Source: a virus
Direction: 5' to 3' (one strand)
IMG/VR virus record: IMGVR_UViG_3300008262_000500
Coordinates: 1 to 25,206 of that record
Length of the DNA: 25,206 nt
Each line of letters begins with the position of its first letter. Within the stretch, counting starts at the first letter, position 1. The notes under the pieces are model-generated. The model was not told the origin of the DNA, did no database searches, and saw nothing but the letters and a program-made list of their open reading frames with translations. This document shows, piece by piece, positions 5,572 through 23,380 of the stretch. The position numbers and the translations under genes were made by a program.

Positions 5572-5767
5572 GGTTGCTCCACAAATTCAAAAAAGTTTCA
5601 AAGGTGAAGCGATCAAACGCCTCCTTTAATTTCTTATGTTCAGCTTCTCGTGATGAAACGTCCGCATCCATGGCAATAATTGTTTCCCGAATACGCACCA
5701 CATCTTGGGATGCTATGTTATCTGGGTGGGGCAGCTTATAGCCCCTTTGGCTGATATCATTTGGCAT
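5558..5767 (-). CDS. Small tail-fibre-associated protein
   Basis: 69 residues. The segment RGYKLPHPDNIASQDVVRIR followed by ETIIAMDADV resembles the short conserved block (Gly-Tyr-x-Leu-Pro-His-Pro-x-Asn, then a helix ending Asp-Ala-Asp) found at the N-terminal end of some tail-fibre proteins. Here it stands as its own gene directly before the fibre and overlapping it by 14 bases. I infer a fibre attachment or linker role. It starts 1 base after the previous stop, with no clear ribosome site, so it is probably translationally coupled. The promoter-like copy J lies within it. Confidence 0.65.
   Translation of the reverse strand: MPNDISQRGYKLPHPDNIASQDVVRIRETIIAMDADVSSREAEHKKLKEAFDRFTFETFLNLWSNHDNS
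5633..5668 (-). promoter_or_regulatory. Phage promoter-like element upstream of tail fibre (copy J)
   Basis: Minus strand: ATGCGGAC, 17 bases, TGAACATAAG. It matches the bipartite element found at six other places. The -10-like part lies about 60 bases before the fibre start at 5571, inside the preceding small ORF. Confidence 0.6.
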
Positions 5768-5768
5768 A

Positions 5769-6995
5769 TCAAGTAATCACAACCCGTAAAGAGCGTACTT
5801 TAGGGCGATAAAGAATATTGCCGCTTAGAATCAACTTCACCCTGGTTTCAGTGGCGCTAAAACTTGAAATAATATGGGTACGCTCAACCCAGCTATCACC
5901 TACAGCTTTGCCATTTGTTAAATCAACCAATTGCCAAGTGCCGTCCGCCTTTTGGATGTAGACCTTAACATCAGCGGTCCCGGTCATCAGCGCTTCATAG
6001 GTGATGCTTACTTTACTATTGCTGCCTGCCGTAATAGCTCTTGTGACGTAATCTGCCGTTTCAGACATGTTGCCTAGAACAATTTGAATGCCGGGATATA
6101 GCACAGGGCTTCTAAGCGCAGAGCCACTGAGCAAAGCTTTAACGCTCAAAGGACCGGTGACGCGGGCCCGCAGGGCAATCGGCAAATCATCGGATAATTT
6201 ATGCTCTGTGCCGTCTTGCTCTGTCAGGGTAAATTGCACATCAGTGTCAGAGGCAACACGCTCAACATTTGCAAGCGCAATCAAATCGGAAATGCTAGTG
6301 GCTGTAACTGATCCTAAATCCACCGTTCTTGTATTTTCTGTAAAACGTGCACCGAGTAGCCTAAAAGTGAGATCACGATTTTGATGGGGCGTCCAGGTGC
6401 TAGCATTACTTGATGAAAGAAGTACGCCCACCTGATAAGGCTGACTCGTCACCCATCTGGCATGGGTTGCATCATATTTGCCAAGCTCTGCAACACGCAC
6501 TGCCGCATCAGCATCATCGGTCAACAATACAATGGCATATTCATGGCCGGCCTCAAGCCAAACAGGCTGCCAAGTTATTCGAGTAGAAGTCCCATTCACA
6601 TTAATAGAAGCAGGCATAATGCTACCTTCAGCAAGCACTGTTTGGGTAGGCATACCAAGACTGGTATCACGAATTTGTACAACTACTCTTTTGGTGCCGC
6701 GATTGCTAAACCACAGATCAACGCCTGCAATATGGCGGCTTTCGCTTAAGGTAAAGGTTTGAGCCAGTGGATCAAAACGGGTGAGGACAACGGTGGTTTC
6801 ATTGCGCCTGATATCGGTAATGACCGTAACACGCCTGCGTTCTTCGGTTGTAATAATACCTCGCCCTGTATATGTGGCCTCACCGTAATTGCCTTTATTT
6901 CCAATAAACTGCACAAGCTTTGTACCGGCTGGAACATTGGCTGGAACGGTAAATTTGCCTTTGATTTTTCCGCTATTATCTGCAACAAGTGGCAT
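5769..6995 (-). CDS. Tail/baseplate-associated protein, downstream partner of the DUF4815 protein
   Basis: 408 residues, predicted all-beta, no membrane segment. The opening MPLVADNSGKIKGKFTVPA and FIGNKGNYGEATYTGRGII resembles the stretch that, in some phage proteins, directly continues a DUF4815 region in a single chain. Here it is a separate gene starting 8 bases after the DUF4815 stop. The middle contains a jelly-roll-like section (LAQTFTLSESRHIAGVDLWF, then RVVVQIRDT, then WLEAGHEYAIVLLTDD) typical of carbohydrate-binding or fibre-base modules. Start 6995 is preceded by GGAGG with ideal spacing. The exact structural role (baseplate wedge, spike or fibre base) is not determined. Confidence 0.75.
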   Translation of the reverse strand: MPLVADNSGKIKGKFTVPANVPAGTKLVQFIGNKGNYGEATYTGRGIITTEERRRVTVITDIRRNETTVVLTRFDPLAQTFTLSESRHIAGVDLWFSNRGTKRVVVQIRDTSLGMPTQTVLAEGSIMPASINVNGTSTRITWQPVWLEAGHEYAIVLLTDDADAAVRVAELGKYDATHARWVTSQPYQVGVLLSSSNASTWTPHQNRDLTFRLLGARFTENTRTVDLGSVTATSISDLIALANVERVASDTDVQFTLTEQDGTEHKLSDDLPIALRARVTGPLSVKALLSGSALRSPVLYPGIQIVLGNMSETADYVTRAITAGSNSKVSITYEALMTGTADVKVYIQKADGTWQLVDLTNGKAVGDSWVERTHIISSFSATETRVKLILSGNILYRPKVRSLRVVIT

Positions 6996-7003
6996 AATTC
7001 CTC

Positions 7004-8989
7004 CTATAAACTAACCGGTTCAACGTTAATACCGTCAAACACCAAACGAAGTTGTTCACCGGGTGCAAATCCATCTAAATCAAAAGTTTGTGTTGCTTGG
7101 CGCATAAAGGCAGCCTCACGACTTGTACTTGAGAGCAACTCAGTGGTTTGACTGATTTGAGTGCCGATCGAAACATTTTGTGTTGTGCTAGACGACACCA
7201 TAGATAAAACACCGCCACCAACGACAACCTGACGGGTAATGGGGCTTGAAAGCACGCTAAACCGTTGTGTGATTGGGCTTGACCATGTGGTTTGCACTTC
7301 AGTCCAGCGATCCACATTGAGATTAATCGCCACCTTCGCAGGTATCGGTGCAAAAGCCTGATAAGGGTTAATTTGCATATCCACTGTTTGTAAGAGCTGC
7401 TCTAAAACAGGTTCTAAAACATAAGGTAAAAGCCACGGCGCGGTTCCTTTACCGCTATCAGCAATAGAAGCATTAATCGGTAAAGTCAGCTCGCGATCGA
7501 CAATGGCAGCGGTTTGGTTAATCCCCTGATCGCGCATGTCATCATCAAAAAATGGATCAACAAATACGCCTTTTTTAGCAGCAGGTTCACGGCTATTGGC
7601 ATCATTACGCAGGCGTTCTTGGGCAATTAAATCATAAAGATCATTAATGCTTGAGCGCATAGCTTCAATATCGCTCATAGGAATAGCATGAATAGCATTA
7701 TTAAAAACATTGGGCTTAATAGCGCTGCGCCAGTTTTGATAAACGTAAGCTAAAGCCAGTTGTCCGCTTGGAGCTTTCGGAACAGAAGGTCGCCATGGAT
7801 GAGCAAGCCCCTTAATCCGTCTGACAACGCCTGTTGCATCGATTGTGATTAAATCATAGCGCGGCATCATCCAGCTATAGTCCACAAGCACCAATGTACC
7901 GTCAACAGCGCCGGAGATTTTAAAGCCATCTTCTGTCACATTTTGCGGGGTAATTTTACTGCGGCAGCGATACGTAATTTGATACGAACTACCGGGAGCC
8001 GGTTCTGCTCCGGGCAAAGACCAATCCACATCACCGGATTTTAATTTATAATCCGTACCGCTGACGTAAGTGGTTGTTCCTTGTTTGATTTGAATGATCT
8101 CAAGTACTGCCGTATCCGGAATTGGATCCATAGCACCTGCATAAGAACCGTGCGTCATCGTGATAGTTTTTTGAACTGTCACATCAACATTTAATATTTG
8201 ATTGGCAGGTGATTCGTTGAGGACGAGATCCATCACGCCCCCGGCACCTGGCTGAAAGGTATAGGGATCAGAATCGATTTCTTGAATATCAGGGTCAATG
8301 GCAAAACGCACACGAAGGCTATGGGCAAGTTCAATCTCAAACCCATCCACATGGGCTTTACCTTCATTGATAACAAAAATCTGTTCACCGTTATCTTTGT
8401 CGAGGTACCTAACATCCATGCCGCTCACCACATAAGAGCCATTAGATTCACGGTCATATCTTGCTAAAGCACTATTGACTGCATCAAATTGTGGCGGTGG
8501 CGCATGCTGAATGAGTACGCCGTTTTCTACGCCATAAATTGGATAAAACTCACCTTCATGGGTCGGAGGGGCTATTCCATCAACTTGAAAATCCCAAGAA
8601 ATTTCAGCTTTTAAGCGTGCAGCGCCGGGCTCTTGATAGTTGCGCGTACCAATAGCAGGATCGCGAAGGCCATACCACACACCGATTCTAACCGTTGCAT
8701 TGGTGGGAATGGTGAAATTTGTAGAACCTATTTCTCGCACAGCACCGCGCAAATAAATAAACCCAGATTCCAGTGTTGTCTCTCCTGTATCTGGATTCAC
8801 TACGCAAGTGCCGCCACGGATCACATCACCATCTCTAAAAATCGCATCACCAATGCCTTTAAGGTTATGAAGCGCATAATCTTGCATTTCATTGAGCTCT
8901 GCCGATTGCAGCCCTCGACCTGCTAGAAAGAGCGTGCGATCATATTTTTTGGCCGGATCATAGCGGTTGTAATAGCTATTAAGAGTCAT
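7004..8989 (-). CDS. DUF4815-family phage tail protein
   Basis: 661 residues. The N-terminus MTLNSYYNRYDPAKKYDRTL, continuing FLAGRGLQSAELNEMQD, is the hallmark opening of DUF4815 phage proteins. The RGLQSAELNEMQ motif is also shared by baseplate/fibre-network proteins of other myophages. A beta module with a TTYVSGTDY core lies at residues ~294-347, and a helical region (~430-540) contains SSINDLYDLIAQERLRNDA. The C-terminus ends in a beta-like stretch (EQLRLVFDGINVEP) that in fused homologues runs on into the next gene's product. It is likely a baseplate or tail-spike structural component. The start has GAGG at suitable spacing, and a weak promoter-like element lies just upstream. Confidence 0.82.
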   Translation of the reverse strand: MTLNSYYNRYDPAKKYDRTLFLAGRGLQSAELNEMQDYALHNLKGIGDAIFRDGDVIRGGTCVVNPDTGETTLESGFIYLRGAVREIGSTNFTIPTNATVRIGVWYGLRDPAIGTRNYQEPGAARLKAEISWDFQVDGIAPPTHEGEFYPIYGVENGVLIQHAPPPQFDAVNSALARYDRESNGSYVVSGMDVRYLDKDNGEQIFVINEGKAHVDGFEIELAHSLRVRFAIDPDIQEIDSDPYTFQPGAGGVMDLVLNESPANQILNVDVTVQKTITMTHGSYAGAMDPIPDTAVLEIIQIKQGTTTYVSGTDYKLKSGDVDWSLPGAEPAPGSSYQITYRCRSKITPQNVTEDGFKISGAVDGTLVLVDYSWMMPRYDLITIDATGVVRRIKGLAHPWRPSVPKAPSGQLALAYVYQNWRSAIKPNVFNNAIHAIPMSDIEAMRSSINDLYDLIAQERLRNDANSREPAAKKGVFVDPFFDDDMRDQGINQTAAIVDRELTLPINASIADSGKGTAPWLLPYVLEPVLEQLLQTVDMQINPYQAFAPIPAKVAINLNVDRWTEVQTTWSSPITQRFSVLSSPITRQVVVGGGVLSMVSSSTTQNVSIGTQISQTTELLSSTSREAAFMRQATQTFDLDGFAPGEQLRLVFDGINVEPVSL

Positions 8990-9011
8990 AAACTTGCCTC
9001 ATTTGTCTTAA

Positions 9012-9047
9012 AATATATATTCACGAGCACCTCATCAAAACGTTACA
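9012..9047 (-). promoter_or_regulatory. Weak promoter-like element upstream of the DUF4815 gene (copy F)
   Basis: Minus strand TGAATATATATTTTAA is an excellent match to the -10 half of the phage element, between the stop of one gene and the start at 8989. The -35 half is poor (TTGTAACG at 17-18 bases), so this is only a candidate. Confidence 0.3.
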
Positions 9048-9718
9048 ACAAAAGAGAAAGTCTCGCGGGTTGCTGCTGTTCTAATCAAAGGCACCGTGCG
9101 TTCTAGAACCAGTAAAATGCCGCTTTCATCTATATCTGTGGGCTCAAAATAACGTTGGCCGGGAGGTAAATCAGGCTTTGTGACGGTGCCAACCATAACA
9201 CCAAGCTCACGGATGATCTGGTTGCTGGCATTATCAAAATCAAAAGTAAAGCGGAGAAAAAGATTATTCGTAGGCGTACTTGATGCCTTGAATCTGCCTG
9301 TTGGGGTGATCAAATCTCCGTCTTCATCACCTACGCAAAACAAGACTTCATCAGCGGTTCTGCGGCCTACTTCATTCAAAAGAGCATTTGCGGTAATGGG
9401 TTCAGGCGGCGTGGCATAAGTGTAGGAAATTGCAACGGTAGCGTTATTTTCTAAATTACCGTTTGGAAGACGAGTGATCACACCCATCACGCTATCAACG
9501 CTATAATCGGTACCGGCAATAAAGGTTGTGTCAGCTTGAGTAATAGACACATCTTTCACCGGCTTATGATCTAGCCCAATTTGATTGCTTGCAAAAGTTT
9601 TAGTGACCGTATGAGTGCTTTCCCAACTTGGATCACCCGTTCCCCAAGCAAGATGGATCGGTTGTTGTTTAATGCTTGCAGCAATAGCTGCTCTGCCGGA
9701 TTTGGTTAAAATGGCCAT
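9035..9718 (-). CDS. Phage tail protein with inserted beta module
   Basis: 227 residues from MAILTKSGRAAIAASIKQQP. The opening and the later blocks (LLNEVGRRTADEVLFCVGDE, RFKASSTPTNNLFLRFTFDF, IIRELGVMVG) belong to a tail protein that commonly accompanies DUF4815 proteins in myophages. Its precise role is unknown. Residues ~53-106 look like an inserted beta domain (TTFIAGTDYSVDSVMGVITR) similar to a segment of the DUF4815 protein. Start 9718 is favoured over the in-frame GTG at 9736 because AAAGGG sits 7 bases upstream. A strong promoter-like element (copy E) lies about 40 bases before it. Confidence 0.8.
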   Translation of the reverse strand: MAILTKSGRAAIAASIKQQPIHLAWGTGDPSWESTHTVTKTFASNQIGLDHKPVKDVSITQADTTFIAGTDYSVDSVMGVITRLPNGNLENNATVAISYTYATPPEPITANALLNEVGRRTADEVLFCVGDEDGDLITPTGRFKASSTPTNNLFLRFTFDFDNASNQIIRELGVMVGTVTKPDLPPGQRYFEPTDIDESGILLVLERTVPLIRTAATRETFSFVVTF

Positions 9719-9749
9719 ATGAATACCCTTTGACACACATATCGAAGTT

Positions 9750-10949
9750 CTAGTTAAGGGTTATATTCACGATTGGCTCTGTATTCGTCCAAGGGCGGTT
9801 TAAGTGACGATGCTCATGCCATAACAAGCATCCTTCATAAAAATAGGGCTCAAAATGATCACGTTTTTGATAAGGTAAAAGCTCCAATTTTCCTAGCGAA
9901 TCTGCTGATAAATAAGGCCATAACAGTGTTTCAGAAAACCAGTCCGAATGCTCTTTTGCAAAATAAGGCTTAACGTCTGACACGATCTCAGCGTCGAGAT
10001 TCTCCGTGTAGTTTGACGCAAAGCGTTCCAAAACTTCTTCAAAGTTTATCTTCCAGACATGTTCAGATAAAACATCTGCGCTTAAAATAAATGTTGCTCC
10101 CACCTCATGTTCAAGACGCACGGGAAAACAGGCGTTAATATCGCCAAGTCGCCAACTATCAGATAAAACAATCAATGCTTTGGCAAGATGAAGAGGCGGC
10201 TGAAAATCAGGAGTGATGGGTGATAATGGATCTGCATTTTGCCAAATATGATCGCGGATATAAATGCCGTTGTAATTGCGGGTATGAGGCTCCGTCTCAC
10301 CTATAAAAGCCACATCTAACCGGTAGAGATCATCGCTTAACGTGCTATTATGATGTCTGCGTGCGCTTGCAAATTTTAGCAAAACCTCTTCTGATTTAGC
10401 CTCAAAAGGATTAAATCGACCGAAAGATAATACGGGGCCATCAGCTGAAAGTTTTACCCCTGAATAATCAGAAAGCAGTGATCCAAATTCACTGTTATCA
10501 AGCATAAATCGCCTGATATCATAGCGATCATTATACATCCGCATCAAGCGTGACCTGGCCGGTGCTGAAAGCCTTGCAAGGGCTACCACATTATCGACAA
10601 AAAAATCATTCGGTACATCATGGATGCCCACCTGAAACTCGGCGAAGTGTTTGCCGGGCGGTTCTTCTTCGATATAAATATTTTCAATATTAACCCATTT
10701 TAAGGCCATACGAAGGGATGCCGGAGTGCCACGAATCCGTTGAAAAATAACGCCATCTTGAATCGCGCGCCTTGGATCAGGCACCCAGGCCAAAATTTCT
10801 CCCAGTCCATATTCATGAATGAGCCATGGGAGGACGCTGTCGGTAGGGCTAAATTTAAACCCACGTATTTTGCTTGGATCAACTCTAAAGCTAATCGCAT
10901 CAACAATGGCTTGTTCTTGAGGCGAACTACTTGGAGGCAATAACATCAT
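9750..10949 (-). CDS. Baseplate protein I-like (P2 gpI family), with long C-terminal extension
   Basis: 399 residues from the ATG at 10949, whereas P2 gpI is about 176. Residues ~1-140 carry the gpI hallmarks: LLPPSSSPQEQAIVDAISFR, LPWLIHEYGLGE, RGTPASLRMALKW and ARLSAPARSRLMR. The remaining ~250 residues are an extension with recurring short blocks (FSFGRFN-like, LIVLSDSWRLGDINACFPV) of unknown function, probably an added baseplate or spike-contact domain. The start overlaps the J stop (TGATG); GTG 10952 and TTG 10955 are possible alternatives. It sits in the canonical V-W-J-I baseplate order. Confidence 0.88.
   Translation of the reverse strand: MMLLPPSSSPQEQAIVDAISFRVDPSKIRGFKFSPTDSVLPWLIHEYGLGEILAWVPDPRRAIQDGVIFQRIRGTPASLRMALKWVNIENIYIEEEPPGKHFAEFQVGIHDVPNDFFVDNVVALARLSAPARSRLMRMYNDRYDIRRFMLDNSEFGSLLSDYSGVKLSADGPVLSFGRFNPFEAKSEEVLLKFASARRHHNSTLSDDLYRLDVAFIGETEPHTRNYNGIYIRDHIWQNADPLSPITPDFQPPLHLAKALIVLSDSWRLGDINACFPVRLEHEVGATFILSADVLSEHVWKINFEEVLERFASNYTENLDAEIVSDVKPYFAKEHSDWFSETLLWPYLSADSLGKLELLPYQKRDHFEPYFYEGCLLWHEHRHLNRPWTNTEPIVNITLN
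9760..9793 (-). promoter_or_regulatory. Phage promoter-like element before the DUF4815 tail cluster (copy E)
   Basis: Minus strand: CTTGGAC, 17 bases, TGAATATAACCC. The site lies in the last codons of the tail protein I gene and points to the next gene, whose start at 9718 is about 40 bases downstream. Confidence 0.65.
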
Positions 10950-11785
10950 CACCAATCACGCCCTCCCATCGTTAGCTCTATGGAATCAAGTGCAACGCAT
11001 TCATGATCCAAAACGATAATATCCTCAAGCGGACTCAGCAGTTCAATACGCTGCACTCCTTGGGCAAAGAGGTGTGCAATGATCCAACTGCGCGTTAAGT
11101 TCCATCCCAAACCTTTTGTTTCATTGAGCGTTTTGATCAAAGCAGCTTTGGCTGTCTCAATGATACCCTCCGGAGTTTCGGGATAGAGATAGATTTTAGC
11201 TTTAAGATTAACAGGGATAATGCCGCTACTGACCACTTCGACGGTATCGGTTAAAACCCTAACATCATCGCGCAAAATAACGGATCGTGCTTTTTCTAAC
11301 AGCTCTTGGCTTGGCGTGCCGTTTCCTTCATGGGATAAAATCGAGACTTTTACCATTCCAGGGCTTGGTGATTCAGCCCGCGCATCTTTAATACGAATAT
11401 CTGCAGATAGCGCGTGATAACGGTAATGCTCACGACTTCCTGCCGTCGACCAGCCCATGATTTTAGCTTGGATACGCCGCCTAAAAGCTTCATCATCTTC
11501 CCCTGATTTACGCTGTACATCATAAAAAGCGGCTAAATGTTCCAAATCTGATTTTGCGGCAAAAGCCAGTAAATTAGCGCGCGCGGCATCATTGACCCGT
11601 TGACGCAAAAGGAGTTCACGCCAAGCGGCAATTTCTAAAATCTTCATTGCCGGATCACTTTCAAGCAGAGCTGAAAACGTGGGATCAAGGCGAATAAGCT
11701 CTTGCTTCATTTGCGCAAAAATCGCCTCATACTCAAGCGTTTCAATGACATTCGGATTTTGAAGGCGTGTTAAGTCTTGCATCAT
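10949..11785 (-). CDS. Baseplate assembly protein J (P2 gpJ family)
   Basis: 278 residues (P2 gpJ ~302). It forms the baseplate wedge with gpW and gpI. Recognisable blocks: ALLESDPAMKILEIAAWREL and LLRQRVNDAARANLLAFA near residues 40-75, LAAFYDVQR, EDDEAFRRRIQAKIMGWSTA at ~95-115 (the family's core motif), then the SPSPGMVKVSILSHEGNGTPS segment and a C-terminal alpha/beta domain ending in VALDSIELTMGG. The start overlaps the gpW stop as ATGA, and its stop overlaps the next start, so V-W-J-I appear translationally coupled. Confidence 0.95.
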   Translation of the reverse strand: MMQDLTRLQNPNVIETLEYEAIFAQMKQELIRLDPTFSALLESDPAMKILEIAAWRELLLRQRVNDAARANLLAFAAKSDLEHLAAFYDVQRKSGEDDEAFRRRIQAKIMGWSTAGSREHYRYHALSADIRIKDARAESPSPGMVKVSILSHEGNGTPSQELLEKARSVILRDDVRVLTDTVEVVSSGIIPVNLKAKIYLYPETPEGIIETAKAALIKTLNETKGLGWNLTRSWIIAHLFAQGVQRIELLSPLEDIIVLDHECVALDSIELTMGGRDW

Positions 11786-12120
11786 GACACAACAATCCCA
11801 TCTAAGGTTATGGGCTTACCATCCGGCAGATAAATCCCCTCTAAAATCAAAGTAATATGACCTTCTTTAATGGACTCAACTTTAACGCGCTCGAGTTTAA
11901 AGCGATTCTCCCATTTTTGCAGCGCCTCAGCAGTAGCCGCATAAAGTTCAACGGCAAAACCAGGAGATGTTGGGCGATCAACAAGTTCAAAGAGTCTAGA
12001 ACCGTAATCTCTGCGCATCACTCGGCTCCCTATCGGTGTGGTCAAAATATCCACTATCGATTGCTTGAGATGCTCAAGGCCCGTTAATTCTTTGCCGCTT
12101 CTGCCGTTCATTCCACGCAT
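11782..12120 (-). CDS. Baseplate protein W (P2 gpW / T4 gp25 family)
   Basis: 112 residues, as expected for the gp25-like wedge protein (P2 gpW ~115). It contains the signature run HLKQSIVDILTTPIGSRVM followed by RRDYGSRLFELVD, and ends in a short beta pair (HITLILEGIYLPDG). In T4, gp25 triggers sheath polymerisation at the baseplate; the same role is inferred here. Start 12120 has GGGG 6 bases upstream; ATG 12111 is an alternative. The stop overlaps the gpJ start by 4 bases. Confidence 0.95.
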   Translation of the reverse strand: MRGMNGRSGKELTGLEHLKQSIVDILTTPIGSRVMRRDYGSRLFELVDRPTSPGFAVELYAATAEALQKWENRFKLERVKVESIKEGHITLILEGIYLPDGKPITLDGIVVS

Positions 12121-12123
12121 AAT

Positions 12124-13921: not shown

Positions 13922-13922
13922 A

Positions 13923-14231: not shown

Positions 14232-14234
14232 GGC

Positions 14235-15251
14235 TTATACCGTAAGTTTTACAAGCACTCCCGGGCGATGACACATTGGTAATGGATTAGACTGAGTATG
14301 TAAATCCGTACCGCGATCAAAGCGTCTTGGCTCTTGTTTGGCATAAAGTGGCTGCCCCAATGTGTTGACGGTTTCGTTAAAATCAGCCGGTGCAAAATAA
14401 GTTGAGAAAGTCTCAGCAGTACCTATCGGAAAGCAATGCGCTGTATCTTGGGCAATAAAGCGTCTGACGTTGCCATCAGGATCAGTTGCTTGGCCGCGAT
14501 ATTCTTCAAAAGTTATGCCGCCAAAGGTAAATCCTGAATGCATATCATTGCGAAGAGCTGCACCTTCCTGCCACCTGTCATAGGCTTCTTTGACTTTGGC
14601 GTGTGAGGTTAAGGCATCAAAAAATTCAGGGCTAACCAGTGCATGAACGCCTGTCATGAATTCACCGCGCAGGTTATCTTCAATGTGGCGCAAAACTTCA
14701 ATGCATTTGCGTTTCACATCAGTGCCAGCTGTGCCTAATGCAAAGCTTACGACTTTTGGTGTGATTTCAAATTCGTTATAGAGATTTACAAGCTCCGTAC
14801 CATCAGCATCCAAAATAATGCCTTTCAAAGCGCCCATCTTTAAGTGCTCTAAAGTAATGGCATGCTTGTTACGCATAGATTGCAGGTGATCGGTAATGAC
14901 ATTTGCAATGGCTTGCAGCTCATTTTCAGTACCAAAAGCACGGATACCTTGTACTTATTCTGGCAAAACCACATCATCATGAGGTATATGCGGAATGGTG
15001 AAGGTTCTGACTTTTCGTTTATCGCGTTTACCAACAGTACCGGGTGCACCTGGGCTTGCTGTTGGAAGCAAGCTTAAGACGCCATTGCGCTCTTCAATAG
15101 CGATGTGCCTAAAGCGTACTGATTTTGACGGAAATAAACCTAATGATTCTGTCCTACCATAGGTGTTTGGCAATAAATTAATGGAAGCTGTTAAGGCTGC
15201 CATATTAAATGCCGGATGTGAGAATGGCCCCTCTAGATTAAAAATTGGCAT
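14235..15251 (-). pseudogene. Major capsid protein E (lambda gpE family), interrupted by an in-frame ochre codon
   Basis: The full frame is 339 codons (338 residues plus stop); lambda gpE is 341. The frame is open except for a TAA at 14955-14957, codon 99. Upstream part: IFNLEGPFSHPAFNMAALTA, LPNTYGRTESLGLFPSKSV, HIPHDDVVLPE. Downstream part, in the same frame: VQGIRAFGTENELQAIANVI, then LKMGALKGIILDADG and GEFMTGVHALVSPEFFDAL, ending RPGVLVKLTV. All are major capsid E blocks. One base change (GAA to TAA) would explain it. The downstream in-frame ATG at 14876 has no ribosome site. The likely readings are a dead gene in a defective prophage, a sequencing error, or rarely suppression. A good GGGGG ribosome site precedes the start. 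Confidence 0.9.
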
Positions 15252-15254
15252 AAA

Positions 15255-15629: not shown

Positions 15630-15644
15630 AAGGGTTTCCTCCAT

Positions 15645-15956: not shown

Positions 15957-16763
15957 AGCTATGGTCCTTATAAAAGATTGATTGGCTGCCTTTTGAATAC
16001 ATTCAGGAAAGGTGAGAATTTCGTCCGCAAGTCCTGTTTGAATGGCATCAAGACCAAAATAAAGACCGGCTTCCGTAGCCTTTACGGCTTCTGTTGTAAG
16101 ACCTCGATTACGGGCTACCAGCTCTATAAACATGTCATATAACCTGCTGACTTCACTTTGCAGTGTTTGCATTGATTCAGAAGTTAAGGGTTCATGGGGA
16201 TTTAAATCATTTTTACGATTACCGGCAAAAACGGTGGTGTATTTGACGCCTTGTTTTTCATCAAAGGCACTTTGATCCATGTGAGTGGCAATCACGCCAA
16301 TACTGCCAACACCGGAAGTGCGGTTGATAAAAACCCTCTCAGCACTGGATGCAATAGCATAAGCCGCGGAATAGGCTTCATCATTACACATGGCCCAAAT
16401 AGTCTTTTGGCTGCGCGCTTGATAAATAAAATCAGCTAAATCAAAGAGACCACTGGTTTCGCCGCCGGGACTATCAATGTCGAGCAAAAGCGTTTGTACC
16501 GCATCATCCGCCAAAGCAGCGCTGATCTGTTTTTGAATCTCATCATAAGAAGTCATCCCCAACATACCATCAAATACGCCTGATCGTTTGGTTAAAATGC
16601 CGTGAATCGAAATGATGGCCATGCCATTGCTAGCACCCTTTACTAATGAAGGCTTTGCAAGTTTAAAAGCCTTGTTTGAGCTCATGTGAGCAGCCAACCA
16701 CTCAAAGCTACGGCGTTCGAGCATCATTGGTTTCATAGCAAATTTTAAGTAGATATCATTCAT
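15645..16763 (-). CDS. Head maturation protease, S49 family (lambda gpC-like)
   Basis: 372 residues. A Clp/crotonase-like serine protease fold is indicated by DIDSPGG (residues ~95-101), the nucleophile Ser132 in DEAYSAAYAIASSAERVF and Lys184 in AGNRKNDLNPH. The Ser-Lys distance of 52 equals that of the catalytic dyad in bacterial SppA. The protease domain ends near residue 265. The last ~100 residues are an acidic helical scaffold-like region that also has its own start (next entry). It is expected to cleave scaffold and portal during prohead maturation. GAGG lies 6 bases before the ATG, which shares one base with the portal stop. Confidence 0.94.
   Translation of the reverse strand: MNDIYLKFAMKPMMLERRSFEWLAAHMSSNKAFKLAKPSLVKGASNGMAIISIHGILTKRSGVFDGMLGMTSYDEIQKQISAALADDAVQTLLLDIDSPGGETSGLFDLADFIYQARSQKTIWAMCNDEAYSAAYAIASSAERVFINRTSGVGSIGVIATHMDQSAFDEKQGVKYTTVFAGNRKNDLNPHEPLTSESMQTLQSEVSRLYDMFIELVARNRGLTTEAVKATEAGLYFGLDAIQTGLADEILTFPECIQKAANQSFIRTIAMTETLPTINPEELLTQGKIQGRSEYQAEALELFRLCKLSKMPEKLGDFIEQNIPVNEAREQLMQLLADRTGTEILSTVSLEPTPQENPVIQAAKARSHMKLTA
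15996..16030 (-). promoter_or_regulatory. Phage promoter-like element inside the protease gene (copy I)
   Basis: Minus strand: CTTGCGGAC, 17 bases, TGAATGTATT. It matches all ten core positions (CGGAC and TGAAT) of the bipartite element. It would initiate roughly 30-40 bases before the nested scaffold start at 15956, and would also serve the decoration and capsid genes. Confidence 0.65.
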
Positions 16764-18196
16764 TAAAAACCTCGTTTTTTAGGCGGCGCTGTATGTCGTG
16801 GATCAGAATCTAAAACAAATCCCGCTTCATCAGCTCTGTTGTTATCGGCTGCAATTTCTTGATCAATTTCTTCGGCGTCATAGCCAAGTTCTGAGATCAC
16901 TTCACTGCGGCTTTTAAAGCCATTACGCACTGCCATTTGTTGTGCTTGTTGATCTTTGAGTGGATCAACCCAGTCAAAACCTTGGGGTATCCATTTGACG
17001 TCTTTGATAGAAGTATCTTTGTCTTGAGAAGGTAAGGCGCCAGAAAGTAAAGCCAGTTCAATCCAGCGATTCCAAACAGGTCTGCAAAATTGAAACACCA
17101 TCACATGATGTTGCAAAGTGGAGCAGCGCCTACGAAATTCAATGAGGCCAGCGCGAATTGAGGAATAATTGACGTTGGTTAAATCACCTGTCAGCTGTTC
17201 ATAGGTAATGCCCATCCCAACGGCAATAGCTCTGAGCTGCTGACGCATAAAGGCTTCGTAATTTGCTCCAACATCCGAAGGATTAGAAAATTTTACATCT
17301 TCACCGGGTTCCAGTAGCTGCATGGTGCCAGGCTCAAGTCCGGCAAGGGCCATCCCTTGTTCATTGGCAGCACCTTCACCCATCATGTTGGCTTCAGGAT
17401 CAAGACGAGTGATAAACCCTGCAAACATAGCGGCCGTTTTCTTGCGCACCAGCTCTGCATCATCATACTGATCCAGCTCATAAAGTTTCAGTAACACACG
17501 GCTCAGCCAAGGCTCGCCTCGAATTTGACCGGGACGCAAGGGTTTATAAATATGCAGGACTTCAGAAGCAGGAATGCGGACAGATTCACCGTTTGAGACA
17601 AGTAACTTTTCACCGGGATGCTCGCGGAACAGATAATATGCTTCTCTTTGGCCGAGTTTATTAAACTCAATACCGTTTCGAACCATATTGCCTGTGACTA
17701 AAATGCGATTCACGGAGGTATCAAGATGTTCGGATTCCAAGGCTTGCAGTTGCAGGGGAACGGATAATCCATCTTCAGGGCGTCTAACTCTAAAACGCAC
17801 AAAACATTCGCCGCCTTCAATCATGCTGCGACAAATAGAGGCTTGTAGACCGTAAAAATCATTAACGCCATGGCTATCCGCCTCATCCGACCAACGTAGC
17901 CATAATGCCTGTACCGCTTTACGAAACTCTGCATTTTTAGCTTTGGATTGCGGTTTGATACCGGTGCCAACAGCATTACTCACCAGTGTTTCGATAATAT
18001 TGGAAGCATAAGGATTTTTGCGTACCATATCTCGCGCGCGGCTACGCAGTGTTTCTAGATGATTACCAAGAAGGCTATTGATCGCGCTATTTTCGGGCTG
18101 CCAATAGGTTAGGCGCTTGCCAGAACCTGCTGCATCCCAGGCGGATGCTTTGCTTTTGGGGCGTTTGAAAAGTTGTGCGAATGATTTTAGCAGCAT
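16763..18196 (-). CDS. Portal protein (lambda gpB family)
   Basis: 477 residues from the ATG at 18196 (lambda gpB 533). It forms the dodecameric channel through which DNA enters and leaves the head. Family blocks: SLLGNHLETLRSRARDMVRK and NPYASNIIETLVSNAVGTGI (residues ~40-80), FVRFRVRRPEDGLSVPLQLQ, ALESEHLD, IYKPLRPGQIRGEPWLSRVL, and GITYEQLTGDLTNVNYSSIR followed by AGLIEFRR. The start at 18196 overlaps the gpW stop (TGATG) with AAGGGG 8 bases upstream, and is preferred over the TTG at 18202. The C-terminus is basic (PPKKRGF) and overlaps the protease start. Confidence 0.95.
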   Translation of the reverse strand: MLLKSFAQLFKRPKSKASAWDAAGSGKRLTYWQPENSAINSLLGNHLETLRSRARDMVRKNPYASNIIETLVSNAVGTGIKPQSKAKNAEFRKAVQALWLRWSDEADSHGVNDFYGLQASICRSMIEGGECFVRFRVRRPEDGLSVPLQLQALESEHLDTSVNRILVTGNMVRNGIEFNKLGQREAYYLFREHPGEKLLVSNGESVRIPASEVLHIYKPLRPGQIRGEPWLSRVLLKLYELDQYDDAELVRKKTAAMFAGFITRLDPEANMMGEGAANEQGMALAGLEPGTMQLLEPGEDVKFSNPSDVGANYEAFMRQQLRAIAVGMGITYEQLTGDLTNVNYSSIRAGLIEFRRRCSTLQHHVMVFQFCRPVWNRWIELALLSGALPSQDKDTSIKDVKWIPQGFDWVDPLKDQQAQQMAVRNGFKSRSEVISELGYDAEEIDQEIAADNNRADEAGFVLDSDPRHTAPPKKRGF

Positions 18197-18420
18197 CAGC
18201 AAATCCCCTTATGTGTGGCAAAAGTAATGCGTCTTTTAGAGGAAACACCTGCAACTTTAAGTTCTGATTTCATACGCTGCCGCAAATTAAGCAAGTCGCT
18301 CAAGTCAACCTCCGCGTATTTGACAATATGATCGCCATAGGCAACAGAAACTACGCGCTCGCCTTTTTGTAGCTTGGTAATCGCTTGTTCTATTTGCGCT
18401 AAATCATCTTCTGTATACAT
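18196..18420 (-). CDS. Head-tail joining protein W (lambda gpW family)
   Basis: 74 residues (lambda gpW 68). gpW plugs the portal after packaging and allows tail attachment. Two helices flanking a beta hairpin are evident: DDLAQIEQAITKLQKGERVV, then SVAYGDHIVKYAEVDLSDLL and NLRQRMKSELK. The position between terminase large subunit and portal is the lambda order A-W-B. A small, well-conserved family, so confidence is high despite the length. Confidence 0.9.
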   Translation of the reverse strand: MYTEDDLAQIEQAITKLQKGERVVSVAYGDHIVKYAEVDLSDLLNLRQRMKSELKVAGVSSKRRITFATHKGIC

Positions 18421-18426
18421 GGTGTT

Positions 18427-20301
18427 CTATCCCATAAAACGGCTTCTAACCACACGTGGTCTTCCTTGCGACTTTGCGGGACGCATAGGTTCTCTTGGAG
18501 GGTTATATTCAGGATTGGGATATTTTTTGTATCCCATAAGACTTTTCCATTTATTTTCATTCCAGCGATCTGCGCCAATAGCGATGGCTGCGGCTCTAGC
18601 ATAGACTCGACAATCCAGCGCTTCATTACGCTCACGGATTTTTTGCCACTCACGTTTTGGATAGCCTTTGCTAATTTTGGTCACCAGTTGCTCAGCGGTG
18701 AGCTGCTTAAAATATTCAGGTCCGTAAGCTGGAAAATGACAGTAACCTGGTGGAAAACCCTCATCCCCTTGAGAAAGCTTAAGTGCATGATAAAGCTCTG
18801 ACTTTAAAACCGAGACACCCACGGGCCAAAGCTTGGCGCCGCGTCTGAGCTTTTGACCGAGCACAGTTACATCTACACGGCTTGGCGCTCCAAGCGGCAC
18901 AAGTGCTTTATCAACACCTTTTACAGCCATGACTCGCCCGGGAGGTAAACTTCGAATCCAACCATAGACTTCTTGAGTGGCATAACCGGCATCAACAGCC
19001 ATCATGGAAATTCCTCGATCTAAGCCGTCTTCGCTCGGGAATAAAGTGCTCATCAATGTGGAAAGATGCTGCCAAGTACTGGATTTAGCAGGGTCGCCAT
19101 CAAAGATGCGATAATCAACCGACCAACTCTCTCTGTTTTTACCCCATGCGACAATCTCAACTTCAATGCGGTCTTTTTGAATATCAACACCCGCCGTTAA
19201 AACAAGACCTCCATAAGGAACAGTACCGATTGAGTAATTTTCTTTGCGTTCAAACAAACGTTGCCAATCTGGTGCCTCACCTTTATCAACCCAGGTTTCA
19301 CCTAAGGTGGTATTTACCCAAACCTTAAGTAGTTGTTCATTTTCTTTGGCATGCAAGAAATTTTGCGCAGCTTGCCCCCAGCTTAACCACCCAACCGGGC
19401 TGTACAAACTGGAAATATGAAAACCGACAATTTTACCATTTGATTCGCCGAATGCACGCCACTGGCCATTTGCAAGCATCCATGTTTTTTGATGATTTTG
19501 GATTTTCTCTTTGCATTCAATACAAACGTAATGAGCATTTGAGGGATCACCTTCCCATTGTACTTGGGGCCATTTTAGAATTTGAAACGTATTACAATGT
19601 GGGCATGGCACCCAGTAATAACGTTGATCGGAAGCTTCAAACTCCCGCTCAATTCGGCTTAAGCCTTGAATGGTTGGCGTTGAGACGAGTAAAATTTTGC
19701 GCCTAGCAAAGGTTGCAGTACGTTGAATAGCAAGGGAGACAGGATCACCTTCACCGTCAGCATCACCCGGGTAAGCATCAATTTCATCTAAGAATAAATA
19801 CCTAACCGGCATAGAACGCAACCCAACAGCACTATTGGCACCGGTCACCACAACGATGCCGCCGGTAAATTCTTTGCTTTGGACGGTGTTGCCTGAATCG
19901 CGAGATCGTGGGTCTTTGACTTTATCGCGTAAGGTAGGTGTGTCATCGATGAGTGGTGCTAAACGTCCTTTGGACCAACGCTTACCCATTTCAACGGTGG
20001 GCTGAACAACCAACATAGGACCGGGCGCTTGATCAATGATATAGCCAATCCAGTTATTGCCGGCCTCAGTGCCACCGATTTGTGCGCCTTTCATAAAAAT
20101 CACTTTTTCAACTGGTGATGATGGTGATAAGGCGTCCATGATTTCTTTTAAATAAGGTGTGCGTTCGGTGCGCCATCTGCCTGGTTCAGAGGACGCGGTT
20201 TGCGATAACATGCGAAAACCATCAGCCCATTCAGAGACTTTGAGTAGCGGATCAGGCCGAAGCCCGGCATTAAAACTGGTTTGATAAGCTTCAAGTATCA
20301 C
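18427..20301 (-). CDS. Terminase large subunit (lambda gpA family)
   Basis: 624 residues (lambda gpA 641). It is the packaging motor and nuclease. ATPase part: Walker A-like FMKGAQIGGTEAG (~69-81) and Walker B YLFLDEIDAYPGD (~168-180), with coupling motif LLVSTPT at ~204-210. A CPHC...CIEC four-cysteine pair follows, as in many gpA-type terminases. The nuclease domain starts at LTAGVDIQKDRIEVEIVAWG with a second acidic patch (MMAVDAGYATQEVYGW). Start is GTG at 20301, overlapping the small-subunit gene by 11 bases, with GGAGA 7 bases upstream. The cos-type cutting partner is encoded immediately upstream. Confidence 0.96.
   Translation of the reverse strand: MILEAYQTSFNAGLRPDPLLKVSEWADGFRMLSQTASSEPGRWRTERTPYLKEIMDALSPSSPVEKVIFMKGAQIGGTEAGNNWIGYIIDQAPGPMLVVQPTVEMGKRWSKGRLAPLIDDTPTLRDKVKDPRSRDSGNTVQSKEFTGGIVVVTGANSAVGLRSMPVRYLFLDEIDAYPGDADGEGDPVSLAIQRTATFARRKILLVSTPTIQGLSRIEREFEASDQRYYWVPCPHCNTFQILKWPQVQWEGDPSNAHYVCIECKEKIQNHQKTWMLANGQWRAFGESNGKIVGFHISSLYSPVGWLSWGQAAQNFLHAKENEQLLKVWVNTTLGETWVDKGEAPDWQRLFERKENYSIGTVPYGGLVLTAGVDIQKDRIEVEIVAWGKNRESWSVDYRIFDGDPAKSSTWQHLSTLMSTLFPSEDGLDRGISMMAVDAGYATQEVYGWIRSLPPGRVMAVKGVDKALVPLGAPSRVDVTVLGQKLRRGAKLWPVGVSVLKSELYHALKLSQGDEGFPPGYCHFPAYGPEYFKQLTAEQLVTKISKGYPKREWQKIRERNEALDCRVYARAAAIAIGADRWNENKWKSLMGYKKYPNPEYNPPREPMRPAKSQGRPRVVRSRFMG
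18503..18533 (-). promoter_or_regulatory. Weak promoter-like element at the end of the terminase gene (copy G)
   Basis: Minus strand TGAATATAACCC is a full -10-type match, but the sequence 17 bases upstream is GGGATAC, a poor -35. It would precede gpW and the portal. Listed only as a candidate. Confidence 0.25.
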
Positions 20302-20761
20302 GGCTGATCTCCTCTAATGCGGTTCGAATTTCTTGCAATAACACCTCATGAATTTTATGGGAATCATCGATAGATGCTAAAAGCGAGGCAAGGCGATCAG
20401 GGATATTCATCAAGCTATCACGTACGATTCTGGCTTTGTTGAAGGCGGATACTTTGACGTCTTCTACTGAAACCAGAGCTCCAATTTCTGCTTTGGCGCG
20501 GGCTTCCAAAAGCTTGCCGCGTTCCATTTCATTTTTGATGCGGGTTTTAAGGAGAAGTGTTGAAAGCTCAGTTACATCAGAGGTACTTTTGCGTCGCTCA
20601 GGTTGACTTGGATCACGCATGACCGCCAAAGCAGCATCTGCTTGTTCTACATCTACAAGACCATCAACCAAATGAATGAGGCCACTTTGTACAAGTTGAC
20701 CTGCATATTGCCTTGAGAATCCATGCCGCTTTGCCCACTGCGATTGCTTGATGAGTTCCAT
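20291..20761 (-). CDS. Terminase small subunit-like DNA-packaging protein
   Basis: 156 residues. N-terminal winged-helix of the Nu1/terminase small subunit type: QSQWAKRHGFSRQYAGQLVQ, then SGLIHLVDGLVDVEQADAAL. A long helical region follows (LLLKTRIKNEMERGKLLEAR) ending in a basic-acidic oligomerisation-like tail (DRLASLLASIDDSHKIHEVL). Lambda Nu1 (181 residues) binds cos DNA with the same type of winged helix. The gene directly before gpA and overlapping it supports the call. No good ribosome site; the methylase stop is only 6 bases upstream, so coupling is likely. Confidence 0.85.
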   Translation of the reverse strand: MELIKQSQWAKRHGFSRQYAGQLVQSGLIHLVDGLVDVEQADAALAVMRDPSQPERRKSTSDVTELSTLLLKTRIKNEMERGKLLEARAKAEIGALVSVEDVKVSAFNKARIVRDSLMNIPDRLASLLASIDDSHKIHEVLLQEIRTALEEISRDT

Positions 20762-20767
20762 AAGCTA

Positions 20768-22015
20768 TCACGTACATAGTTCATCAAAGGTCTTTCGAGT
20801 GCTAGCATGAATGGCCTTTGATTTAGTTTGCATCTGGAATCGCCTAATGATGGTATCGATGTATTTTGGATCAAGCTCAATCATCCGGCAGCGTCTTTTG
20901 GTGCGTTCTGCGGCCATGAGTGTTGTACCAGAACCACCAAAGGGATCAAGAACGATATCGCCCACCTTGCTACTGTTCGTGATAGCACGCTCCATAAGTG
21001 CCACTGGCTTCATGGTGGGATGCAAATTATTAGCGTTGGGTTTATCAATAAACCAGACATCGCCTTGATCACGGGCACCACACCAATGGCGATCAGCGCC
21101 TTCACGCCAGCCATAAAGAATAGGTTCATATTGCCGTTGATAATCAGCGCGACCCAAAGAAAAATGATTTTTAGCCCAAATCAAAAAAGTAGACCAATGA
21201 CCACCGACTTGTTTAAATACTTTTTGTAACACAGCAAGTTCTGAGGCTGCCATGCACATATAAATGGCGCCTTTGGTGTTCATAATGATGTTAGAGCAGA
21301 CGTCATAGAGAAAACTTTCAAAGCCTTCTCCAAGATTGTCATTCAAGATTTTGTGTTTGTTTTCACGGGATTTGTTCCGCAGTGTATCTTTGATGCTGGC
21401 GCCATAATTGACGTTATAAGGTGGATCACACACAGTGATATCGGCTTGTTCATCCTCTAAAACAATTTTGTAGGAATCAATTAGGGTGCTATCACCACAA
21501 TACAATCGGTGCTCACCTAAAATCCATAAATCACCGGGCTTGCTGATGACTAGGACATTATCTGTCGAATCAACTGAATCGGCTTCAGCAGGTTTCTCAA
21601 GATCAATATCGGTTGCATCCAGCAGCTTTTGTATTTCATCAAAATCAAACCCGGTTAATTCCAGATCAAAATTAAGTGCCTGCAAATCTTCCAGTTCAAG
21701 CTTGAGTAAATCTTCGTCCCAATCCGCCCAATTAGCCGATTGATTGGCAAGCAATCTAAAGGCTTTGATTTGGGCATCACTTAAATCATCGGCTAAAATC
21801 ACCGGGATTAATTGTAAACCCAGTTTTTTAGCAGCTTTAAGGCGTAAATGGCCATCAATAACGCTGCCATCACTTTTAGCAATGACGGGGATACGAAAAC
21901 CAAATTCTTTGATGGAGGCACACATTTTATCAACCACCGCATCATTTTTGCGGGGATTGCGGGCGTATGCGATAAGATTGTCGATTGGGATATGTTGGAT
22001 TTGAAGTTCAGTCAT
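20768..22015 (-). CDS. ParB-like domain / DNA N4 or N6 methyltransferase fusion
   Basis: 415 residues. Residues ~5-95 are a ParB/sulfiredoxin-like domain (IPIDNLIAYARNPRKND, VIDGHLRLKAAKKLG). Residues ~160-395 are an amino-methyltransferase with catalytic DPPY at 197-200 and the SAM-binding LDPFGGSGTTLMA at ~356-368. The order DPPY then FGGSG, with the recognition region between them, marks a beta-class enzyme of the type that modifies A-N6 or C-N4. The HPTMKPV motif before the SAM site is typical. Such ParB-methylases are frequent in prophages and may protect phage DNA from host restriction. It is the first gene of the late block, three promoter-like elements lie upstream, and it has no visible endonuclease partner. 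Confidence 0.94.
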   Translation of the reverse strand: MTELQIQHIPIDNLIAYARNPRKNDAVVDKMCASIKEFGFRIPVIAKSDGSVIDGHLRLKAAKKLGLQLIPVILADDLSDAQIKAFRLLANQSANWADWDEDLLKLELEDLQALNFDLELTGFDFDEIQKLLDATDIDLEKPAEADSVDSTDNVLVISKPGDLWILGEHRLYCGDSTLIDSYKIVLEDEQADITVCDPPYNVNYGASIKDTLRNKSRENKHKILNDNLGEGFESFLYDVCSNIIMNTKGAIYMCMAASELAVLQKVFKQVGGHWSTFLIWAKNHFSLGRADYQRQYEPILYGWREGADRHWCGARDQGDVWFIDKPNANNLHPTMKPVALMERAITNSSKVGDIVLDPFGGSGTTLMAAERTKRRCRMIELDPKYIDTIIRRFQMQTKSKAIHASTRKTFDELCT

Positions 22016-22235
22016 AAGCGCACCCGTTCCTTAATATTTGTGTCAAGTGTCAAGGTTTGGGCCAATTCTAACGCTAGTAAAATCCCGGGGCTTTGCCACC
22101 CGCATGGCATAGGTATGGGGAAGGACCCGTGCATACCAATACCAGGACGATGAGAATATTCAGTTGCATTTTTAAGACTTACAGCGTTATCTAACCCATG
22201 ACCTTGTCACCCTTTCTTATTTGAATTTCTTTCAT
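22012..22235 (-). pseudogene. Possible small leader gene before the methylase, split by a -1 shift
   Basis: ATG at 22235 opens MKEIQIRKGDKVMG and then meets TAG. In the -1 frame the reading continues LDNAVSLKNATEYSHRPGIG and GMHGSFPIPMPCGWQSPG to a TGA at 22012-22014 that overlaps the methylase ATG. Together they would make ~74 residues. There is no X_XXY_YYZ site at the junction, so if real this looks like a one-base deletion. The downstream frame alone has an ATG at 22134 (40 residues) without a ribosome site. Not recognised; an open stretch this short could be chance. Confidence 0.3.
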
Positions 22236-22240
22236 ATCAA

Positions 22241-22274
22241 CTCTATTCAGCTTTGAGCTTTCATTCGTCCGCAT
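22241..22274 (-). promoter_or_regulatory. Phage promoter-like element before the late block (copy D)
   Basis: Minus strand: TATGCGGAC, 17 bases, TGAATAGAG. The ten core positions match exactly; the -10 flank is the least AT-rich of the set. Confidence 0.6.
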
Positions 22275-22333
22275 ATTTGCAACTTTTTTGCAAAATATTT
22301 TTTGGCTGATGAATGCTCCAATTGTCTCTGGTA

Positions 22334-22369
22334 GTTATATTCAGCAACACCACATGATCCGTCCGCAAA
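22334..22369 (-). promoter_or_regulatory. Phage promoter-like element before the late block (copy A)
   Basis: Minus strand: TTTTGCGGAC, 17 bases, TGAATATAAC. This is the best match to the consensus and lies in non-coding DNA with an AT-rich run just upstream of the -35 half. Confidence 0.72.
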
Positions 22370-22419
22370 ACTGAAAATATTTTTTTCATTGCAGTGGGCC
22401 TTTGGTATTGCTGATAGGT

Positions 22420-22453
22420 GTTATATTCACTGTTATGCATAGATGTGTCCGAC
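22420..22453 (-). promoter_or_regulatory. Phage promoter-like element before the late block (copy B)
   Basis: Minus strand: AGTCGGAC, 17 bases, TGAATATAAC. It lies just downstream of the DUF6378 stop and points to the methylase and terminase genes. AT-rich sequence flanks the -35 half, as in copy A. Confidence 0.7.
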
Positions 22454-22468
22454 TAAAGAAAAAATATT

Positions 22469-22726
22469 TCATCGAAGATCACTCAAACACGCGGCATACC
22501 CCGCAACATCAACCAGGCTATCGTAATGCCCAGGGTTCTTCTGTAATCGTGCAATCTTTAAATCCAGCATCATCAAGCCGACTTGAGCGGGCGTAATGGT
22601 TGTGCCAAGGATTAGCGACCAGCGTTTAGCAATATGCTCAAAATTCTCTTTGGGTGAGCCGTAAGTCTTCTGCCGTTCCTCAATGGTTGAGATGGATTGT
22701 TCCAGTAATCGTTTGCCGTTCATCAT
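22469..22726 (-). CDS. DUF6378-like small phage protein
   Basis: 85 residues from the ATG at 22726, whose ATGA overlaps the preceding stop, with GGGAG 5 bases upstream. The block STIEERQKTYGSPKENFEHI, then AKRWSLILGTTITPAQVGLM, MLDLKIARLQKNPGHYDSLV and DVAGYAACL matches DUF6378. These small helical phage proteins of unknown function have an HD- or MazG-like look (conserved E, D and the closing D-x-x-G-Y). It probably acts in nucleotide or DNA metabolism, judging only from its RuvC-like neighbour. A longer in-frame start at 22753 lacks support. Confidence 0.85.
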   Translation of the reverse strand: MMNGKRLLEQSISTIEERQKTYGSPKENFEHIAKRWSLILGTTITPAQVGLMMLDLKIARLQKNPGHYDSLVDVAGYAACLSDLR

Positions 22727-23190
22727 TTTGCTCCCATGTTGTCTTGTGCCCATAGCAGTAATGCCAGGCTATCGGCTTCATTATCATCCACCGGATTAAA
22801 TCCTTTGGCTTTAACAGCTGCGATAACCTCTTCCTTGCTGGCATTACCTTTACCGGTGGCATGACGCTTAATCGTCCCAACGCTAACCCCTTGATAAGGG
22901 ATTTCTTGATCTTCACACCAAGCTGTTAAATGTGCTAAAAACCCGCCGTAGGTATGTGCTGCATCCACGCCTAAATGCCTACGTACTTCTTCAAAATAGA
23001 CAGCCTTGATGTCCACTTTTTGTTTGAGGGAATCCAAAAAATGGCGAAAGCGTAAGAAACGCATACCACCCCCACTAAAGCGCGATGTATGAAAGCTCTC
23101 ACTGCCACTGAAGACGCGTCCATCACTCAGCAAAGCCCATCCGGTTTGCGTTCCTAAATCTAAAGCCAAGGTGTTTTCCATATTCACCAT
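22723..23190 (-). CDS. RuvC-like Holliday junction resolvase / phage RNase H-fold nuclease
   Basis: 155 residues. RNase H-fold nuclease with the RuvC acidic tetrad placed as expected: Asp11 in LALDLGTQTGWAL, Glu67/68 in VYFEEVRRHLG, and Asp136/Asp140 in FNPVDDNEADSLALLLWA. The basic block GTIKRHATGKGNASKEEVIA before the last motif is typical of RuvC and its phage relatives. It likely resolves branched DNA before packaging or during recombination. Two starts are possible, 23190 and 23181 (MENTLAL); neither has a strong ribosome site. A promoter-like element (copy C) lies about 35 bases upstream. Confidence 0.9.
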   Translation of the reverse strand: MVNMENTLALDLGTQTGWALLSDGRVFSGSESFHTSRFSGGGMRFLRFRHFLDSLKQKVDIKAVYFEEVRRHLGVDAAHTYGGFLAHLTAWCEDQEIPYQGVSVGTIKRHATGKGNASKEEVIAAVKAKGFNPVDDNEADSLALLLWAQDNMGAK

Positions 23191-23225
23191 CCAAGAAATG
23201 CTATTCGCAAAATTTATTTTCTGGT

Positions 23226-23263
23226 GTTTATGTTCAGCTTTGTTTGTAGTTGTGTTCGCAAAA
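23226..23263 (-). promoter_or_regulatory. Phage promoter-like element before the RuvC-like gene (copy C)
   Basis: Minus strand: TTTTTGCGAAC, 17 bases, TGAACATAAAC. It lies in non-coding DNA with initiation expected near 23220, about 30-40 bases before the RuvC-like start. It differs from copies A/B by G-to-A in the -35 half and T-to-C in the -10 half; the latter change is shared with copy J. Confidence 0.65.
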
Positions 23264-23319
23264 ATATGAAGTTAGAAGGGGGAACTTTTACGCGCGCGAA
23301 ATACCTTTTATAAATATCG

Positions 23320-23377: not shown

Positions 23378-23380
23378 GAA

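Follow-up and report, generated by a model that had tools for sequence, protein, structure and literature searches.

Phage-encoded sigma factors with cognate late promoters are already known, as in phiEco32, 7-11 and T4. In T4, gp55 is a phage sigma subunit dedicated to the late genes, whose promoters comprise a −10 block (TATAAATA) without a −35 and require gp33 and gp45. The putative circuit described here shares with gp55 the use of a phage sigma factor for late genes, whereas its sites, unlike those of T4, include a −35. The closest working systems are phiEco32 and 7-11, in which the phage sigma factor redirects host RNA polymerase to phage-specific promoters before structural genes (PMC4331800). 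As in the present phage, several promoter copies precede the structural genes, including several before one gene; and here, as there, the motif is phage-specific, lies upstream of late genes on the coding strand and is conserved in relatives. Both phages also encode an anti-sigma factor. Their motif, TGTGATGTTATA, is a single block found in lytic podoviruses, whereas the element described below has a clear −35 (G[GA]AC) at a fixed distance (N17) from a second block, in temperate WO-like phages.

Among bacterial systems the likeness is to the ECF sigma factors EcfG, RpoE, SigW and SigH: a protein of sigma2 and sigma4, a GGAAC-type −35, fixed spacing and, in some clades of Wolbachia phage WO, a CGT-type −10. 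EcfG promoters have the form GGAAC-N16-CGTT, with AAC nearly invariant (PMC7083833), which fits WO forms in which G[GA]AC stands 15–16 bases from CGT. The present case differs from bacterial ECF systems in that the gene belongs to a phage, G[GA]AC is preceded by GC or TT, and the −10 is longer and AT-rich (TGAAYATAA, TACATATA). For WO itself, a sigma-70 subunit in the replication module has been supposed to act on that module's genes (Kent 2011, PMC3173496), and according to a review it has yet to be established which targets the sigma factors of Wolbachia act on (PMC7397232). Start sites mapped by Cappable-seq in Wolbachia yielded only sigma70-like motifs, WO lytic expression being low in that study (PMC12558409). 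Holospora prophages have been described as undaviruses, relatives of WO (Symbioviridae: Wovirus, Undavirus; PMC9203015); the word 'promoter' is absent both from that paper and from Kent 2011. A search of the open-access literature found no paper describing the element or the circuit, and matches to the motif as text were unrelated.

A two-block element in a Holospora prophage

Holospora are bacteria of Paramecium nuclei, and Wolbachia is an insect symbiont. The DNA analysed, a record of 25,206 bases (hereafter the window), covers part of a Holospora prophage akin to WO. Late gene content and order are common to the window, the Holospora prophages and WO, as is characteristic of Undavirus, and the window's late proteins are mostly 80–98% identical to those of H. 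obtusa and H. undulata (71–90% for the fibre and gpI). Late genes read leftward (RuvC-like, DUF6378, ParB/methylase, terminase, portal, protease, capsid, baseplate, fibre, sheath, tube, tape measure); sigma, Gam-like and Sak4-like genes read rightward. The features needed below are as follows.

22723-23190, minus: RuvC-like resolvase, first gene of the late block (phrog_159, E=9e-30)
20768-22015, minus: ParB/DNA methylase, then terminase small and large subunits, portal, protease, capsid
9035-9736, minus: BW3TFN baseplate wedge/tail-fibre-network gene, first gene of the tail-fibre block (PF25691, E=5e-44)
23883-24482, plus: ECF-like phage sigma factor, 199 aa, sigma2 at ~20-92, sigma4 at ~138-182 (phrog_1740 RNA polymerase sigma factor, E=6e-26)
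23227-23263, minus: candidate promoter element before the RuvC-like gene, TTTTGCGAAC-N17-TGAACATAA, noncoding
22420-22456, minus: tandem element 1, upstream of the methylase-terminase block, TTAGTCGGAC-N17-TGAATATAA
22334-22370, minus: tandem element 2, best match in the window (held-out rank 1), TTTTGCGGAC-N17-TGAATATAA
22239-22276, minus: tandem element 3, weaker −10, ATATGCGGAC-N17-TGAATAGAG
9760-9796, minus: element ahead of the BW3TFN gene and overlapping the gpI gene at its 3′ end, CTTGGACGAAT-N12-CGTGAATATAACC
24447-24484, plus: rightward element ahead of the Gam-like and Sak4-like genes and overlapping the sigma gene at its 3′ end, TGCGAAC-N17-GGAATATAA (held-out rank 2)
5633-5669, minus: doubtful copy in a 69-aa ORF before the tail-fibre gene, on a conserved protein motif (D.D.S..E.EH)
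16001-16032, minus: doubtful copy in the S49 protease gene, on a conserved protein motif (LAD....F.E)
18501-18538, minus: weak candidate upstream of gpW/portal, −10-like CCTGAATATAACC without a −35

A preliminary description of this DNA reported seven copies of the element, all leftward, and this observation is partly confirmed: the element is real, with corrections. Four perfect copies of CGGAC-N17-TGAAT lie on the minus strand (22425-22451, 22339-22365, 22245-22271 and 16001-16027) and none on the plus strand; variant copies at 5638-5664, 9765-9791 and 23232-23258 also have a gap of exactly 17, and every position originally given was correct. The enrichment first claimed holds for the exact form, at k=17 on one strand, and not for the loose 10-base pattern, which with up to two mismatches occurs 26 times against 19.8 expected. 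Because the latter shows no excess, only the exact or extended form can carry significance, and tests of spacing, strand and held-out recovery were used instead. The pattern CG[GA]AC-Nk-TGAA[CT] at k=17 has six minus-strand and no plus-strand matches in the window, and all other k from 8 to 27 gave none except k=15 (two matches); dinucleotide shuffles of the window gave a mean of 0.15 and a maximum of 2. Elsewhere, 18 contigs carrying the exact motif without a homologous gene were taken as chance background.

For the held-out test, a weight matrix derived from relatives' sites only was scanned over both strands of the window. Ranks 1 to 6 fell to sites at 22370 (minus), 24447 (plus), 22456, 5669, 23263 and 22276 (all minus), with 16032 (minus) at rank 8 and 9796 (minus) at rank 10. 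Since the site at rank 2 lies where the sigma gene ends and points rightward, the claim that the element points leftward only does not hold. As to number, five of the seven original copies stand, and two (5638 and 16001) are explained equally well by protein conservation. The copy at 5638 has a good matrix score, and its −10 is lost in the SP13 relative; for the copy at 16001 the amino acids are conserved in WO, where GCA GAT replaces GCG GAC and the −35 bases are lost. Both were rejected as promoters, and are not counted, because they lie in coding sequence, on conserved protein motifs that fix their spacing, and lose one half in SP13 or WO. Possibly tandem duplicates, the copies at 22245-22451 lie ~90 bp apart with AATATTTT before each, and we do not count them as three independent events.

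Three further observations concern the window as a whole. The major capsid gene (14235-15251, minus) has an in-frame TAA stop at 14955-14957, giving frames of 98 and 213 aa, and relatives align across the stop. Repeated TCTAGATTT motifs at 23370-23545, between the RuvC-like and sigma genes, are a possible operator or origin. An Rfam scan of the window returned no family.

Conservation among undaviruses and in Wolbachia phage WO

Enrichment of the element upstream of homologous genes, which the preliminary description proposed as a check, was found in five undavirus relatives as well as in WO. Matches to CG[GA]AC-N17-TGAA[CT] numbered 6 in H. undulata, 7 in H. obtusa, 6 in an alphaproteobacterial MAG, 4 in the SP13 MAG and 5 in L044, all on the late strand with none opposite; other values of k gave at most one per strand, and shuffle means, window included, were 0.1–0.4. 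Across whole Holospora genomes, matches to GGAC-N17-TGAAYATA were confined to prophage-bearing contigs. One H. undulata site (C2:4249) has no phage gene behind it and is probably due to chance. The element was also sought in distant relatives of the sigma factor (~25% identity), and none was found there.

Conservation of the blocks exceeded that of the sequence between them. In SP13 (L122-123), where late proteins are 48–84% identical apart from a few conserved stretches that are higher, the two blocks stay and the spacers change; the four noncoding copies (23232, 22425, 22339 and 22245) likewise have counterparts in relatives with different spacers. The 23227-23263 element is kept, with differing spacers, in L044, L050, L051 and H. 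obtusa, and its WO counterpart also precedes RuvC. For the copy at 9765, TTGGAC-N17-TGAATATAACC persists in SP13 despite a gpI identity of only 49%, and in WO a noncoding element precedes a BW3TFN gene of the same family. At the end of the sigma gene, G[GA]AC-N17-GGAATA is kept in H. obtusa, L021, L044, L050 and L051, ~50%-identical relatives among them, and WO has N17 or N18 copies in the same place.

Two observations on individual relatives may be recorded here. In L021/L046 the late region is 91–95% identical to that of the window and the sigma and Gam-like genes only 51–52%, from which it would seem that the sigma module was swapped and the promoters stayed. In L117 (H. undulata), methylase, terminase, portal, protein D and gpJ are each split into two frames in the assembly; this prophage may be decaying, or the sequence may contain errors.

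In the annotated collection, WO were the only phages with the sigma factor of the window (7 records, 35–38% identity; ~35–40% overall). Their elements have the −35 seen in the window (TTGCGGAC or TTTTGGAC) at a spacing of 17, or 18 after sigma, and clade-specific −10s (TGAATATA, TACATATA, TGTATATA). They precede blocks matching those of the window, namely RuvC/late head, the BW3TFN tail and the replication genes directly after sigma, and for many of them the distance to a start codon is a few tens of bases. In WOMelB-type phages TTGCGGACGAATT...CGTACATATA occurs ahead of RuvC, behind sigma and ahead of the BW3TFN tail gene; the WOVitA-type element is TTTGGAC...ACCGTGTATATA; a third type has TTTTGGAC-N17-TGAATATATA and a fourth TTTTGGAC-N17-TGTATATA. 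The post-sigma site has N18 in both WOMelB- and WOVitA-type phages.

Searches of 41 Wolbachia genomes with GGAC-N15/16-CGTRYATATA gave 30 matches, and with the reversed pattern none. A model of 21 sites (R1), built from sequence only and partly including WO sites, gave matches at E<=1e-3 in 15/21 sigma-bearing genomes compared with 2/20 sigma-less ones (Fisher p=9e-5), counts that are not fully independent and partly restate known sites, since WO sites entered R1 and orthologous copies make up many of the matches. Strong matches clustered near the sigma gene, with 47/62 falling within 15 kb of it (~5.5% of the sequence); this location and the zero in the reversed control do not restate known sites. 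Six genomes, two of them fragments, have sigma without a strong R1 match, and two have a strong match without sigma. Separately, one Wolbachia genome (G041) has 50 R1 matches, mostly weak and possibly a repeat family of similar sequence. In L161, from a Wolbachia genome with four sigma genes, about seven tandem elements with several −10 types occupy 4140-5495 (minus), and these may respond to several phage sigmas.

The sigma factor and the reading of the sites

The two-region sigma factor that had been noted beside the sites is borne out by homology and predicted fold. With 199 aa and sigma2 and sigma4 only, it falls within the size (~160–200 aa) and domain make-up of ECF sigma factors; AF2 predicts two helical domains (20-92 and 138-182, pLDDT ~90) joined by a flexible stretch. 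The best Foldseek neighbours are the ECF factors SigH, SigE and RpoE (probability ~1, none at E<=0.001, with the low TM-scores expected if the two domains are placed differently), and a PDB profile search gave ECF SigE at 1e-7. It is 97% identical to its H. obtusa counterpart and 89% to that of H. undulata. It is named ECF-like, and not filed as an ECF member, because curated profile cut-offs were missed (TIGR02937, 24.2 bits against 42.9; Pfam Sigma70_r2, 22.2 against 24; Sigma70_ECF, 20.9 against 21.1). It further departs from many bacterial ECF genes, for which autoregulation through an upstream element is common but not universal, in having no element upstream on its own strand: neither R1 nor the matrix found one on the plus strand at 23191-23883, the plus-strand element sitting at the 3′ end of the gene. 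An anti-sigma gene alongside is likewise a frequent but not general ECF trait; the neighbours here are the Gam-like and Sak4-like genes.

The sites also have an ECF-like arrangement, a GGAAC-like −35 at fixed spacing: G[GA]AC-N17-TGAA occurs in the window only at 17, and WO has G[GA]AC 15–16 bases from CGT. A residue of the sigma4 recognition helix tends to track the bases before GGAC, Arg occurring with GC, Asn or Thr with TT and Asp with TC; the pairing of Arg with GC-GGAC is found in the Holospora group and in WOMelB, and L097/L166, with Arg and GT, are an exception. This correspondence is suggestive only. Taken together, the element is probably the −35/−10 promoter of a phage-encoded ECF-like sigma factor (probability about 0.86), and we infer that it is cognate to the sigma factor of the window. 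The original proposal, that late genes are driven by a phage sigma factor acting at sites whose −35 is ECF-like, is thus supported, the element recurring before homologous genes in relatives.

The strongest competing account has host sigma70 using these sites as promoters with a poor −35, a phage activator bound to the TGCGGAC block and ATATAA/TATAAC serving as the −10. Phage activators of late genes are common, and ATATAAC or TATATAAT stretches do occur at the downstream half in both phage groups. However, 21 bases separate the TATAAC hexamer from GGAC, the two blocks keep a constant gap of 17, the −10 half varies by clade, and none of these sites was recovered when 22000-23950 was scanned for sigma70 promoters; the −35 half is ECF-like and the regulator encoded beside the sites is itself a sigma factor. 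Host promoters of this kind are judged unlikely.

A cos-like stretch (GGGTCCTTCC...GGGTGGCAAAGCCCCGGGATTT), which we take to resemble lambda cosQ/cosN, lies at 22052-22133 (minus), and in the same place in L044, L048, L050 and L051. Three copies of the element fall no more than ~330 bases from it, and packaging and replication proteins bind repeated sites, so that the copies might be imagined as binding sites of another phage protein (a repressor, or one of replication or packaging) with no promoter function. Sites nevertheless also occur well away from cos, where they precede RuvC, the tail gene and the replication genes and are aimed at the next gene, and many WO elements closely precede start codons, making such a role highly improbable. 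The tandem sites and the terminase genes are on opposite sides of the cos-like site; in lambda, too, the late promoter reads across cos into the terminase genes. Least credible of all is a functionless product of chance, tandem duplication and conserved coding motifs: two copies are indeed explained by protein motifs and three are ~90 bp tandem units, but noncoding copies persist across undaviruses and WO with differing spacers, only k=17 on one strand is occupied, the held-out matrix recovers the sites of the window, and the reversed control gave 0 against 30.

Under the preferred reading of the element as a phage sigma promoter, the sigma factor (23883-24482, plus) would be expressed first, presumably from a host-type promoter because no element lies upstream of it. 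It would then replace the host sigma on host RNA polymerase and direct it to [TG][CT]G[GA]AC-N17-TGAAYATAA sites, the timing being, like the recognition itself, a deduction from the arrangement. Leftward, the site before the RuvC-like gene and two to four tandem sites would serve methylase, terminase, portal and capsid, and the site before the BW3TFN gene the tail genes; rightward, the site at the end of sigma would serve recombination and replication genes. The late blocks of the regulon as first proposed are retained, and its restriction to late genes is not, one branch pointing into replication genes.

Cargo genes and the biology of WO-like phages

In some Wolbachia genomes the element also precedes WO lysis genes and SpvB-like cargo genes. 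In three (L150, L151 and L152), elements lie before a small-protein/patatin operon and an SpvB-domain gene, and in one genome also before an endonuclease-family gene; the −10 type of these elements (TCTTGTATATA) is that of the resident sigma's other sites. Their positions are as follows.

L150, 478 and 1769: type-matched cargo elements
L151, 532, 2907 and 5249: type-matched cargo elements
L152, 587 and 1815: type-matched cargo elements

Matches at a similar spacing were seen in G040.

Whether one ECF-like phage sigma factor commands both lytic genes and accessory cargo across WO-like phages of intracellular bacteria is, from these placements, an evenly balanced question. Were it so, cargo directed at eukaryotes would be expressed in the manner of phage late genes. 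Phage WO carries cytoplasmic-incompatibility genes, and its regulation is largely unknown; for each of several WO clades the analysis supplies a defined promoter sequence, the genes that it would serve and a sigma factor that may be its partner, all of them testable. WO and the Holospora phages would, moreover, be linked by a common regulatory circuit in which the −10 has diverged and the −35 and spacing have stayed.
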